Under the pieces are notes generated by a model. That model made no database searches, had not been told where the DNA came from, and worked only from the letters and a program-made list of their open reading frames with translations. The position numbers were made by a program, and so were the translations under genes. 64,000 bases of DNA from an uncultured Poribacteria bacterium (GTDB taxonomy: Bacteria; Poribacteria; WGA-4E; PCPOR2b), in NCBI GenBank assembly GCA_958296125.1, contig OY282444.1:2537940-2601939 (forward strand), read 5' to 3'. How positions within the stretch are numbered: position 1 is the first letter of the stretch; every line of letters starts with the position of its first letter. Of the stretch, positions 1-37,876 are shown in pieces.

Positions 1-1447
1 ATCGCAATCCGAAACCGACCGCCAGCCATGTTTTCAATCCGGGGTAGGTAGGAAAATTTCAGAACATTGCGAACACTGCCCGCAGCAAGAGGGGCAATAG
101 GCGCAGTAGCACTATCAGTGGCAATCGGGTCGGGTGTCGTGTCGGGCTCCGCGGCATTAGCGCGGTAGCCCCAGCCTACATTTACTCGGCCTGACAGACC
201 GGCTCTGACGGTTAAATAAAAGCTGGCATCGGAGGGGGTGCCTGTTTGTCTTTTTCTTGTAATAAGTTGATCGGGTGTTTCAGTAGCAAGCTTTCCGCTC
301 CATCCGTGTGTTCCATATACGGGTGCACGGTTCCCAGGGGCAAATACCTTACTCGGCGGGGTGTCTCCGTAGCCCCCTGGGGGACCTGGGACTGACCACG
401 GTGGTGCTGCATTGAGAGTGGTAAAGCCACTGAAACGGGTCAGGAGCTTAGTACCTGCTGTGCCAAATAGTTTTATAGATGTCGTGTTCAGATCGGACCA
501 ATCGTCGGCTGTGGGGGTGCCTCTGTTGACCTGGTAATCGAATTTATAGGTAGCGTCAACGGAAGGGAAACGTATTTGACAATAGATTAGGTAGTGAAGT
601 CTCACGACAGGAGCATTCAGTTTTTGGGCAGCATCTCTTCGACGGGGCCCGGATGGAACTACAGTTTCCAAATCCTCAGCTGATTGTCTGATTGTTATCC
701 GATTCCCGTTAACGTATAGACCCGAATTACCCGGAGATCCATCCTCCCCCTGAGTAAGAGTCATCGTATAGGTATAGGGGTTAGTGTTGCCAGAAAACGA
801 TGGAGTGCCGTAAACCACCCCATCATACTCATCATACCTTGGATCCGCCGAGCTAGGATACGGGGCCGCAGGCCTGGCCAGTGTGTAGTTAGGTAGATAA
901 GTAGTGTTTTCAAATGGCCAACCAGAACTGGGTCTGTCTGGAGGAGTACCAGTTACTGATGAAGAATAACTTGTGTGGAAAGCACGCACCCGAACATTTA
1001 GGGAACCCGGAATCAACTGAATACCCTCTGGGATATCCAACCGAAACCCCTGCTTGTTGTCGTCGTTGTGCGATGTATAAAAAACTTGCAGCCTGTAAGT
1101 GCGACCAGGCTGAATAGCGTCTATTGGAATAGTGTCACCGCTAACGGAACGAATGCGGAAACTTATCAGGTCCGAAAATATCACGCCCTGCGGCGCGGCC
1201 TCGTTAATGAACAATCCCATAACTAACACCAAACTGATAACTAAAAATACGCCGCTTTTACGTTTTTGGGTTAATGGGCTTTGAGTGGCTTTGAGTGGCT
1301 TTGAGTGGCTTTGAGTGGCTTTGAGTGGCTTTGAGTGGCTTTGAGTGGCTTTGAGTGGCTTTGAGTGGCTTTGAGTGGCTTTGAGTGGCTTTGAGTGGCT
1401 TTGAGTGGCTTTGAGTGGCTTTGAGTGGCTTTGAGTAGTTCAATCAT
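1..1447 (-). CDS. Large secreted protein, partial, start out of frame (phase-OFF candidate)
   Basis: One minus-strand frame is open without a stop from about position 1280 to the left edge, over 400 codons, and leaves the window. It begins with a signal-peptide-like stretch (KRKSGVFLVISLVLVMGLF) followed by a beta-rich, Pro/Gly/Ser/Thr-rich region (for example VFYTSHNDDKQGFRLDIPEG). No family was recognised. The only start with a good ribosome site is ATG at 1447, preceded by AGGAG. Between that ATG and the signal peptide lie sixteen 10-bp repeats, and with this copy number translation from 1447 stops at TAA 1271-1273, in a different frame. One more unit, or two fewer, would join ATG to the long frame. 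In-frame internal starts (ATG 1220, GTG 1229, TTG 1232) would cut the signal peptide. A promoter lies about 140 bases upstream. The open frame and repeats are seen directly; phase variation is inferred. Confidence 0.7.
1277..1436 (-). repeat. 16-copy 10-bp tandem repeat (contingency-locus type)
   Basis: Exactly sixteen head-to-tail copies of GGCTTTGAGT on the plus strand (ACTCAAAGCC on the coding strand), with no mismatch seen. A 10-bp unit has no stop codon in any frame and encodes the ten-residue cycle SHSKPLKATQ, so the array is translatable at any length. Each unit gained or lost moves the frame by one base. It sits between a ribosome site/ATG and a signal peptide. Confidence 0.95.
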
Positions 1448-34433: not shown

Positions 34434-34997
34434 CTAACCATTCAGGAAATTCTTCAACAGCTTTTTCCCTTCGCTGGTCAAGATAGACTCAGGGTGGAAC
34501 TGCACCCCCCAGATCGGGTAATCTGTGTGCCGAAATCCCATAATTTCGCCTCGGTCGGTCCATGCAGTGAGTTCTAGGCAATCCGGCAGCGTCTCTTTTT
34601 TCACAATGAGGGAGTGGTAGCGTGTCGCCTCAAACGGGTTTTCAAGGTTGTCGAAAATTTGATCACCGTTGTGGTGAATCATTGACGTTTTGCCGTGCAT
34701 CAAGCGTCCTGCGGGGACGATATCGCCGCCAAACACATTGCCAATACACTGATGCCCCAAACAGACACCGAGAAGGGGCACACGTCCGGCAAAATGACGG
34801 ATCAGATCGCAGGAGATGCCGGCCTCCCGCGGTGTGCGGGGCCCCGGCGATATGACGATCTTCTCAGGTGCGAGGGCTTCGATCTGGTCGAGCGTGATTT
34901 TGTCGTTGCGATGGACGACAAGGTTTGCTCCCAACTCACCGAGATATTGCACAAGGTTGTAGGTGAATGAGTCGTAGTTGTCAATCATGAGTATCAT
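34434..34997 (-). CDS. trpG: Anthranilate synthase component II (glutamine amidotransferase)
   Basis: 187 residues. Class-I glutamine amidotransferase triad: Cys in [10 protein letters not shown], and His-Glu in [30 protein letters not shown] is the classical TrpG/PabA start. It supplies ammonia from glutamine to TrpE for anthranilate synthesis and could also serve p-aminobenzoate synthesis. It is the last gene of the hisI-trpE-methyltransferase-trpG run, 11 bases after the methyltransferase gene. Confidence 0.92.
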
Positions 34998-35008: not shown

Positions 35009-35695
35009 CTAATCATTTCTGTGGATTCTCATCATTTCGTTGCCATCTTTCTGGAACTCATAGGGTACGCGACAAATATCAACTGTGAATCCCGCTTCCG
35101 AAAAGTATGATTGAATCGGTGCAACGTAGGGCGACTTCTCGCCATTCAATGTTAGCAGCGGGAAAATCCGTACCTCTTGAGAAACGCGACAGAGTTCTTG
35201 TATAGAATCCCGATGAAAATCGAAAGATAGCTGAACAGAATATAGAAAGAGCAGATGCGAGCAGAGTGCTAAATCGAACTGGCAATCGGTAAAACTGAGT
35301 GAAGGTAGAGACTCAGGCAGATAACGTCCCTGCACCTTTCCCACCTCAAAATCTTCTAAAAACTTCCTCATGGTCTCAAGGCGGAAGCGACCCCAATGCG
35401 CTGGATCTGAAAAGAAATCCCAGACAAAGTTGTCGGAGTTTTGTTTCACCTGAGAGATGAGGGTATCGTAATTCTCTTCAATTCTCCCCTCGATCTGCGC
35501 TCTTGAAAACAGGTAAATCGGGTCAATTGACAGAACCGTATGTCCCAAGGCAGTCATCTCGCTGTTAAAGCTGGCAGGTCCATCACCGACACCGAGGATA
35601 CGTAGGTCTAGTTCCTTGGCGGAGAGATTGAACATCTGCGTGTATTCTTGCAGCGATCTGCCCCAAGGGATGACTTGATTGAGTGCTACACTCAC
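35009..35695 (-). CDS. SAM-dependent methyltransferase-like protein inside the trp operon
   Basis: 228 residues. [19 protein letters not shown] near residue 32 is a SAM-binding motif I with GxGxGxxxFN, followed by the acidic [33 protein letters not shown] resembles the motif-IV region of class I methyltransferases. No substrate-specific feature was recognised. It lies between trpE and trpG with short spacers (21 and 11 bases), so it is almost certainly co-transcribed. No known step of tryptophan synthesis needs a methyltransferase. Confidence 0.7.
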
Positions 35696-35716: not shown

Positions 35717-37216
35717 CTACTCCAATCCCGCCTCAGCTAATTCAATTGCTCTTAATCCCGCCCGCGCCTTGTTGACCGTTTCCTCGTATTCCATTTCGGG
35801 CACAGAGTCTGCAACGATACCGCCGCCCGCTTGGATGTAGGCGATGCCATCTTTGACGACAAGCGTGCGAATTGTTATTGCTGTATCCGCGCTGCCAGAG
35901 AAACTAAAATAACCGACGGCTCCACCGTAAGGACCCCGGCGGGTCGGTTCAAGTTCGTCAATAATCTCCATCGCCCGGATCTTGGGGGCACCGGATAGTG
36001 TCCCGGCAGGCAAGCAGGCGCGAATCACATCGAAGGGGGTCTGCCCCTCGCGTAATTCTCCGACAACGTGCGAGACAATGTGCATCACATGCGAGTAACG
36101 TTCGATTACCATCATCTCACTCACGTGGACAGTATGGTATTCGCAGACGCGCCCCAAGTCGTTTCGCCCAAGGTCAACGAGCATGACATGCTCTGCCTGC
36201 TCCTTCGGATCGGCGAGGAGTTCCGCTGCCAAGGTTTCATCTTCGGTCGGGGTTGCTCCACGCGGGCGGGTTCCCGCGATTGGACGCATCTCTACAACAC
36301 CGTCCTCAACGCGCACCATCATCTCAGGTGAGGCACCAGCAATCTGGAGTTCATCAAACTTGAGGTAGTACATATAAGGCGAGGGGTTCACGGTGCGCAA
36401 AGCACGATACGCATCAAATGTATCGACCGATATCGGCACGCTAAAACGCTGCGATGGCACAACCTGAATGATGTCCCCCGCGGCGATATACTCCTTTGCT
36501 CGAAGGACAACCTGATGGTAATCTTCCTTCGTAAAGTTTGACGTAACAGGCACATTGTTCGGGCTTCCATCCGGCTGTTTGACCCCGCCTGCGAGAGGGA
36601 AAGAGGGGGACAACGGCTGTTGGAGTTTGGCAGTGAGCTCGTCAATATGATCGATTGCCTGCGCGTAGGCTTCGTCAACGTCCCTATTGATGTGGGCATT
36701 GGCGACCACCTTAATCTGATTATTCACATGGTCAAACACCAAGAGGGTATCGGTGACCATGAAAAAGCAATCAGGTAGCTCTCGATCATCCACGGTAGTG
36801 TCGGGGAGGTCCTCGACGAAACGCACCATGTCGTAGTTCAGGTAGCCAACCGCCCCACCGTAAAACCGTGGCAATCCCTCAACCTCAACGGGTTGGTAGC
36901 GAGTCATCAATTCTTCAAGCTCCTCTAACGGATCTTCGCTTTCCCGTTCAACCGTTTGCCCGGTTCGGAGGTCATCGATCCGGACCAGATTGCCGCTGCT
37001 CCGAAGTAGGATTGATGGGTCACTGCCGAGAAACGAATACCGAGCGACGTGTTCACCGCCTTCAACGCTCTCCAACAAAAATGCGTGATCCGTTGCGCCA
37101 ATCTTGTAAAACGCGGACACAGGCGTTTCCATATCCGCCAAGATTTGTTTGTAAACGGGAATCAAGTTACCGTGTTGCGCTTTTTCTCGAAAATCTTCTA
37201 AGTTTGGGTGATACAT
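35717..37216 (-). CDS. trpE: Anthranilate synthase component I
   Basis: 499 residues. The N-terminal domain has the tryptophan feedback site LLES in HAFLLESVEGGEHVARYSFLG near residue 48. The chorismate-binding domain shows PSQRFSVPI, SPYMYYLKFDELQIAGASPEMMV, PIAGTRPRG, DLGRNDLGRVCEYHTV and GTLSGAPKIRAMEI. It makes anthranilate from chorismate with TrpG. The LLES motif predicts inhibition by tryptophan, and the upstream leader peptide predicts attenuation as well. It lies 20 bases after hisI. Confidence 0.95.
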   Translation of the reverse strand: MYHPNLEDFREKAQHGNLIPVYKQILADMETPVSAFYKIGATDHAFLLESVEGGEHVARYSFLGSDPSILLRSSGNLVRIDDLRTGQTVERESEDPLEELEELMTRYQPVEVEGLPRFYGGAVGYLNYDMVRFVEDLPDTTVDDRELPDCFFMVTDTLLVFDHVNNQIKVVANAHINRDVDEAYAQAIDHIDELTAKLQQPLSPSFPLAGGVKQPDGSPNNVPVTSNFTKEDYHQVVLRAKEYIAAGDIIQVVPSQRFSVPISVDTFDAYRALRTVNPSPYMYYLKFDELQIAGASPEMMVRVEDGVVEMRPIAGTRPRGATPTEDETLAAELLADPKEQAEHVMLVDLGRNDLGRVCEYHTVHVSEMMVIERYSHVMHIVSHVVGELREGQTPFDVIRACLPAGTLSGAPKIRAMEIIDELEPTRRGPYGGAVGYFSFSGSADTAITIRTLVVKDGIAYIQAGGGIVADSVPEMEYEETVNKARAGLRAIELAEAGLE

Positions 37217-37236: not shown

Positions 37237-37617
37237 TCAGTACACTGCATCCGGATCAAAAACCTTTTCACCAACAATGCGCGTGGAATTGCCATGGGGG
37301 GAGACTTCCCGAAAGAAACAGGAGCGGTAGCCGGTGTGGCACGCCCCGCCTTTCTGTTCGACTTTGATGAGCAGCGCATCACCATCACAATCAAAGGCGA
37401 CCGTTCGCACAGCTTGTGTGTGTCCTGAAGTCTCGCCCTTGATCCAGTATTCCTGGCGGGAGCGGCTCCAGAAGCAGACACGCCCTGATTCTAATGTCTT
37501 CCGCACTGCCTCGCGGTTCATATAGCCAACCATGAGGACCTCTTTGTTTTCGTCATCCTGTATAATGGCAGGAATTAAACCGTTCTGATCGAGTTTAAGT
37601 TGATCAAGTATTTCCAT
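37237..37617 (-). CDS. hisI: Phosphoribosyl-AMP cyclohydrolase
   Basis: 126 residues. [47 protein letters not shown] and [13 protein letters not shown] are the HisI signature; the Cys residues and acidic DCDGD bind zinc and magnesium. It opens the purine ring of PR-AMP in histidine synthesis. It is the stand-alone form without HisE. ATG 37617 is preferred because AGGG lies five bases upstream; ATG 37629 has no ribosome site. It is the first gene behind the attenuator. Confidence 0.95.
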
Positions 37618-37652
37618 TTTTTCCCTCATTTAACAGAGAATAGGCATAAAAA

Positions 37653-37688
37653 AAGCCGTAGACAACGGGGTGCGCATGCCTACGGCTT
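37653..37688 (-). terminator. Attenuator terminator before hisI
   Basis: On the minus strand AAGCCGTAG (37680-37688) pairs perfectly with CTACGGCTT (37653-37661), followed by a run of T continuing to 37648. It lies between the leader peptide and hisI, so it would stop transcription before the operon. The loop segment GCACCCCGTT (37664-37673) can pair with AACGGTGTGC (37726-37735) inside the leader with one mismatch, a possible competing fold. Confidence 0.8.
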
Positions 37689-37711
37689 CGGTAGAGTATG
37701 AGTCCAAAAGT

Positions 37712-37810
37712 TTATCTCAGCACAGGCACACCGTTTCCCTCAACACAACGCCACCAATGCCAATGATAAGACGCGATTTGAAACTGTGGTTGTCGGTTCA
37801 GGGTTTGCAT
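37712..37810 (-). CDS. His/Trp leader peptide of the hisI-trp operon
   Basis: A 32-codon minus-strand frame, ATG 37810 to TAA 37712-37714, with GAAAGG four bases upstream. It encodes MQTLNRQ... and, at residues 14-22, SYHWHWWRC, that is three Trp and two His codons within five positions. It follows a good promoter and precedes an intrinsic terminator, the arrangement of ribosome-mediated attenuators. Stalling at Trp or His codons when the matching charged tRNA is scarce would favour read-through into hisI-trpE-trpG. The frame, codons and hairpin are seen directly; the regulation is inferred. Confidence 0.85.
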   Translation of the reverse strand: MQTLNRQPQFQIASYHWHWWRCVEGNGVPVLR

Positions 37811-37846
37811 AGTGCCTTTCAACTTCCTAATTATCTGGATGCTTAA

Positions 37847-37876
37847 AGAATATCACAATCCCAGTCTCGGTGTCAA
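37847..37876 (-). promoter_or_regulatory. Promoter of the hisI-trp operon
   Basis: Minus-strand TTGACA (37871-37876), 18-base spacer, TATTCT (37847-37852) with an extended TGA just before the -10. About 35 bases upstream of the leader ATG. Confidence 0.7.

Follow-up and report, generated by a model that had tools for sequence, protein, structure and literature searches.

A putative leader-peptide attenuator with interleaved histidine and tryptophan codons ahead of a mixed hisI-trpE-trpG operon in Poribacteria

Introduction

Histidine and tryptophan are made by pathways that share only PRPP. In the genome of an uncultured Poribacteria bacterium, the histidine gene hisI stands directly ahead of tryptophan genes, and a short open reading frame (ORF) enriched in His and Trp codons stands ahead of hisI. 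This locus raises the question of whether the short ORF belongs to an attenuator and, if so, whether it senses one amino acid or two.

Attenuators with leader peptides are familiar from other bacteria. In Escherichia coli, the his leader has seven His codons in a row, the thrABC leader carries Thr and Ile codons, and the ilvGMEDA leader carries Ile, Val and Leu codons. Trp_leader and His_leader are families of the Rfam database. One source lists thrABC and ilvGMEDA of E. coli among attenuated operons (PMC1183508). In Actinobacteria, trp attenuators have a leader with tandem UGG codons ahead of trpE, according to another (PMC1262725). A 2010 paper gives leader peptides as shown in Proteobacteria and Actinobacteria and adds Firmicutes, with a His leader ahead of hisS (PMC2965389).

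Results

A leader, a terminator and a candidate promoter precede a mixed operon

The window, that is, the whole stretch of 64,000 nucleotides that we analyzed, comes from a 5.16-Mb single-contig genome. From the letters alone, a first-pass annotation had proposed that a promoter, a 32-codon leader with the run SYHWHWWRC and an intrinsic terminator precede a mixed hisI-trpE-trpG operon, with His and Trp codons interleaved in the control run. We located all three upstream elements on the minus strand, and the control codons are interleaved as proposed (Table 1). The three genes were identified by Pfam and NCBIfam, and the description of the operon needs one amendment, as a 228-aa ORF (X) also intervenes between trpE and trpG. 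The gene order is thus hisI-trpE-X-trpG, tightly spaced. The start of hisI is probably at 37617, which is preceded by GAGGGA, rather than at 37629. The 228-aa ORF had no Pfam or NCBIfam match, and its sequence gave us the impression of a SAM-dependent methyltransferase. A match to it is present in locus L039, and none was seen between trpE and trpG of L033-L035. A PriA-type enzyme serving both pathways was considered as the reason for the mixed operon and is not favored, given the two trpF-type matches and the two strong HisA/HisF-type matches in the genome.

Table 1. Positions in the window of the features of the leader and the operon
Feature	Coordinates	Strand	Basis
Sigma-70-like promoter, TTGACA-18-TATTCT	37847-37876	minus	Promoter scan; TTGACA in relatives
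Possible region 1, AGGCAC at ribosome-binding site, complementary to region 2	37812-37817	minus	Weak
Leader ORF, 32 codons + stop, MQTLNRQPQFQIASYHWHWWRCVEGNGVPVLR	37712-37810 (ATG 37810, TAA 37712)	minus	Matching leader in 69 genomes
Control codons CAT TGG CAT TGG TGG (His-Trp-His-Trp-Trp)	37751-37765	minus	Per-codon conservation
Region 2, GTGTGCCT, antiterminator 5' arm, in last leader codons	37724-37731	minus	Covariation
Region 3, AGGCATGC, antiterminator 3' arm; overlaps terminator 5' arm	37674-37681	minus	Covariation
Intrinsic terminator (regions 3:4), GAAGCCGTAGGCA-12 nt-TGTCTACGGCTTT then T run	37648-37689	minus	Long-loop rule, folding, covariation
hisI, phosphoribosyl-AMP cyclohydrolase	37237-37629	minus	PRA-CH by Pfam and NCBIfam
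trpE, anthranilate synthase component I	35717-37216	minus	Pfam and NCBIfam; 20 nt past hisI
228-aa ORF (X), trpE/trpG interval	35009-35695	minus	Open reading frame
trpG, anthranilate synthase component II	34434-34997	minus	Pfam and NCBIfam

The leader start codon is preceded by GAAAGG, which resembles a ribosome-binding site. The promoter matches the consensus at 10 of 12 positions, with TTGACA at 37876-37871 and TATTCT ending at 37847; since the scan returned 5 promoter-like sites where shuffled sequences predict 4.2, this match by itself proves little and is no better than chance. The five further genomes of genus g1 also have TTGACA at about -66 relative to the leader start codon (-59 in one), as does G017. 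Among the 68 leaders with 90 nt upstream, promoter-like sites with at least 9 of 12 matches were present in 37, against 17% of shuffles, and sites with at least 10 of 12 in 22, against 3.3%. The terminator was not listed by a generic scan for loops of at most 8 nt, and a rule with longer loops was used instead. The folding energy of its hairpin alone is -21.4 kcal/mol.

The leader is conserved across the phylum

We sought hisI in 84 genomes of the phylum and found it in 79; with a second hisI of G048, this makes 80 loci (a weak second match in G033 was left out). A leader precedes hisI in 70 of them. One (L010, on contig C149 of G048) was dropped from the His counts, leaving 69 leaders; its hisI is 84% identical to that of the window and its leader is f1-like, and this contig in a g10 genome is probably a contamination, or else a recent transfer. 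The 69 leaders come from genomes of six families (f1, f2, f4, f5, f7 and f8). For three of them (G048, G056 and G058) the contig ends ahead of trpE, and the hisI-trpE linkage is assumed. Among the other loci, three have too little upstream DNA (107 nt in G013, 35 nt in G054 and 29 nt in G049), three have hisI away from trpE (G002, G024 and G025), and no recognizable leader was found ahead of linked hisI-trpE in G004 (433 nt available), G023, G026 and G027. Outside the comparison stand G005, which has no hisI match and just 182 nt of DNA ahead of its trpE, and G007, G010 and G050, in which there is no close full-length trpE match.

The initial reading depended on conservation of the H/W run and the terminator in relatives, and both are conserved. 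HWHWW occurs literally in 48 of the 69 leaders, WHWW in 57 and HW in 68. A strict terminator rule was passed in 61 of 70 loci; inspection of six of the nine misses revealed a hairpin and a T run in each, the T run being weak only in G011, and the misses outside that inspection being G047, G042 and G037.

Several loci depart from the common pattern. In L114 (G069) and L115 (G077) a 13-codon in-frame insert divides HWHWW (…EHWQCEAKTNS…RIWWHS…) and the frame is kept, and some f1 leaders have an extra in-frame TGG codon. Genus g8 of family f4 (L145 and L137, from G027 and G026) has linked hisI-trpE with no leader or H/W run upstream, and it seems to have lost the attenuator. In G023 (L147 and L260) the interval from hisI to trpE contains GTGTGCCTGTA, which resembles the last part of a leader, as if the attenuator had decayed there. 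This stretch suggests that in family f3 hisI first ended up beyond the attenuator and then, in genus g7, dropped out of the operon. L117 (G083) has a cobalamin riboswitch (102 bits; 114-333, minus strand) about 280 nt ahead of the leader, on the opposite strand.

Two covarying stems compete for region 3

A test for mutually exclusive stems had been suggested along with the initial reading. We performed it on an alignment of 23 of 65 leaders. Standard pairs make up 92.4% of the antiterminator, regions 2:3, and 5 of its 8 pairs have changed on both sides, e.g., with C-G replaced by U-A, and U-A by C-G, in f9/f10; its covariation score of 0.373 compares with 0.218 for shuffled alignments, none of 500 shuffles scoring as high. 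The terminator, regions 3:4, has 94.6% standard pairs, both-side changes in 7 of 12 pairs and a score of 0.384 against 0.201, again with 0 of 500 shuffles as high. When the partner was offset by one, two or three columns, the score of each stem fell. As the two stems have columns 96-100 in common, they are mutually exclusive.

Folding energies were less distinctive. The energy of the 2:3 duplex ranked among the best 10 of 200, relative to shuffled region 2, in only 27 of 65 leaders, mostly outside f4, and the folding energy of the whole leader was unremarkable (z of -1.54; 14 of 200 shuffles as good). Candidate partners of region 2 on its 5' side differ by family. In f1, either the ribosome-binding site or TGGCAT may serve, and TTGGCAT is able to pair with region 2 or its surroundings; TGGCAT, which encodes Trp-His, is also the alternative partner in the f1/f2 consensus. 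In f4 the candidates are the SHS codons (TCACACTCC), within which CACACTCC pairs with the region 2 stretch GGAGTGTG. A single classical 1:2 stem consistent across families was not found.

The position of the ribosome was simulated in a partition-function stall scan of 18 representatives of the 65 sequences. In most, region 3 is paired with upstream RNA while the ribosome stands anywhere between the start and the last codon of the H/W run, and this antiterminator pairing is lost once the ribosome nears the end of the ORF. G039 (L149, f4) is an exception, with a lower antiterminator value at early codons. In most representatives the antiterminator is predicted to be available at any His or Trp codon of the run, so a stall at either should act alike.

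His codons follow the presence of hisI

All 69 leaders ahead of hisI contain at least one His codon and 68 contain at least two, His making up 12.9% of their residues. Four other leaders precede trpE with no hisI behind them (G001, G002, G024 and G025); G001 yielded no hisI, and in the other three genomes the gene lies on a different contig. Their runs read FWRWWWRS, NWCWWWRNE, SRWRHID and RWWYTSWGR, with 0, 0, 1 and 0 His codons, respectively. In all four, terminator and antiterminator are retained, as are the Trp codons. Averaged by genus, the number of His per leader ranges from 1 to 5 in 13 genera with hisI, versus 0, 0 and 0.5 in the three without (P = 0.0018, exact one-sided Mann-Whitney test, which ignores shared ancestry). 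Trp per leader does not differ between these genera (P = 0.53).

In a TrpE tree of 84 rows, all with more than 330 aligned residues and including six outgroup rows, the leaders without hisI occupy two separate places, f9+f10 and f3g7, with G001+G002 apart from G024+G025. The association of His with hisI therefore rests on only two independent switches, in a tree with moderate support near f6/f8/f9/f10 (89/86) and some long branches. There are exceptions on both sides, as G024 retains one His without hisI and G003 (f5) has one His only with it. In f5, f7 and f8, His is placed elsewhere relative to Trp (GHHHWCWWHE, WRHWHWR and YHRHWRRLRHR), a placement that points to selection acting on which codon is present and not on a single position of the RNA. 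Control-run codons for both end products are thus conserved and depend on gene content, in two switches. The dual His/Trp reading of the first-pass annotation is supported by these data, from which sensing of His would follow indirectly.

Codon usage was then compared at the nucleotide level. In f4, the largest family, His codons adjoining Trp are CAT in 94 cases and CAC in 0, against 459 CAT and 249 CAC in hisI/trpE there, which indicates that the nucleotides are held, beyond the amino acid. Within the SHS motif of f4, the helix with region 2 accounts for the first His. Part of the f4 His conservation is, to judge from these codons, RNA pairing or another nucleotide-level constraint. At the middle position of f1 we counted 5 CAT and 3 CAC, synonymous variation as expected if the amino acid alone mattered, and both codons are used in f1, f7 and f8 (the anchored codon table omits nine of the 69 leaders, which have no W-x-W-W anchor).

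Other his and trp loci

A first scan took in 30 loci each of hisG, hisD and trpA and the genome's own hisA/F and trpF, with some incomplete loci possibly misplaced. A second covered hisB (9 loci), trpC (8), trpD (8), hisG (8), hisD (4), hisA/F (2) and trpF (2); its positive control recovered the ORF in 6 of 8 cases, two having longer open frames, and the terminator in 8 of 8. Although several short frames rich in H or W and a few hairpin-plus-T matches turned up, no leader-then-terminator arrangement was found ahead of hisG, hisD, hisB, hisA/F, trpA, trpC, trpD or trpF among these loci. We also searched 74 loci for a second leader between hisI and trpE; six had short frames with two close Trp codons, all without a T6 run, and the sole T6 run, in G068, came without such a frame. 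No Rfam family, Trp_leader and His_leader included, reached the gathering threshold in the window or in 14 loci picked for the leader, and a permissive scan of the leader gave one chance match only.

Discussion

The element combines a short codon-enriched ORF, an intrinsic terminator and an exclusive antiterminator, as leader-peptide attenuators do, and it is almost certainly a ribosome-mediated transcription attenuator. Translation of the leader is inferred from the conservation of its codons and from differences that keep the frame. The analogy with trp attenuators makes it very probable that the element senses a shortage of Trp; it probably also senses a shortage of His, as suggested by His codons that track hisI. 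Transcription would begin some 60 nt ahead of the leader ORF. When the first ribosome translates the full leader, it would cover region 2, leaving region 3 to pair with region 4 and transcription to stop before hisI. Scarcity of charged tRNA-His or tRNA-Trp would stall the ribosome in the HWHWW run and free region 2, so that the antiterminator 2:3 could form and hisI-trpE-X-trpG be transcribed. The best explanation of the data, and a likely one, is an attenuator that acts as an OR gate with His and Trp as its two inputs.

The strongest competitor is a plain tryptophan attenuator, in which the His codons are there for their RNA bases, CAU beside UGG, as pairing partners, and shortage of His plays no special role. 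The invariant third base of the f4 His codons and the pairing of the SHS codons in f4 and of TTGGCAT in f1 are what it would predict; TrpE and TrpG also make up most of the operon, and no His-type leader with a terminator was found ahead of hisG, hisD, hisB or hisA/F in the loci examined. Against it, His is kept in every leader-bearing lineage with hisI although its positions differ and both codons serve in f1, f7 and f8, and it is nearly absent from the four leaders without hisI despite the same 2:3 and 3:4 stems. We consider this alternative unlikely, though it deserves more weight than any other.

Control by something other than stalling, e.g., a riboswitch, a TRAP-like protein or a T-box, with the short ORF incidental, gains what room it has from the indirect nature of the case for stalling and translation. 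It is very improbable given the Rfam results on the window and the 14 loci and given an ORF that is kept through differences in frame, such as the extra TGG of some f1 leaders and the 13-codon insert of G069 and G077. More improbable still is a decaying or non-functional leader, or a chance short ORF next to the terminator of an upstream gene: loss of the leader in G023, G026, G027 and possibly G004 would fit decay, but conservation in six families and compensatory changes in both stems would not.

The OR-gate attenuator can be set beside known systems. With the trp attenuators of Proteobacteria and Actinobacteria it shares a short leader ORF with Trp codons and an exclusive antiterminator and terminator, which in those systems lie ahead of trpE (for Actinobacteria, PMC1262725). 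The Poribacteria leader differs in interleaving His with Trp, in having hisI as the first gene, in belonging to another phylum and in matching no Rfam family. With his attenuators and the hisS leader it shares His codons in a leader ORF ahead of a his gene; unlike them, it has no pure His run, His being mixed with Trp, and hisI is apparently the only his gene under it in the loci examined. thrABC and ilvGMEDA likewise have one leader with codons for several amino acids, all of them end products to which the operon contributes, but those amino acids come from one branched pathway, whereas His and Trp come from separate ones. Close hisI-trpE pairs also occur in Verrucomicrobiota, Omnitrophota and others, and no comparable H/W leader was found ahead of hisI in those loci. 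Our literature search, with most subscription papers outside its scope, returned no His+Trp leader and no attenuation in Poribacteria; multi-amino-acid attenuators are known (thr and ilv), and one joining His and Trp across unrelated pathways was not found in the literature searched.

It is reasonably likely that one attenuator joins two unrelated pathways as an OR gate and that its codon content has been tuned by evolution: where hisI left the operon, the His codons left the leader, and the Trp codons and the switch stayed. If this is true, a leader-peptide attenuator would couple a pair of separate biosynthetic pathways, in a phylum where our search found no attenuator described, and these operons would provide a natural experiment on how control codons follow operon content. 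The locus would also be a warning that gene callers overlook such short leaders in candidate phyla.
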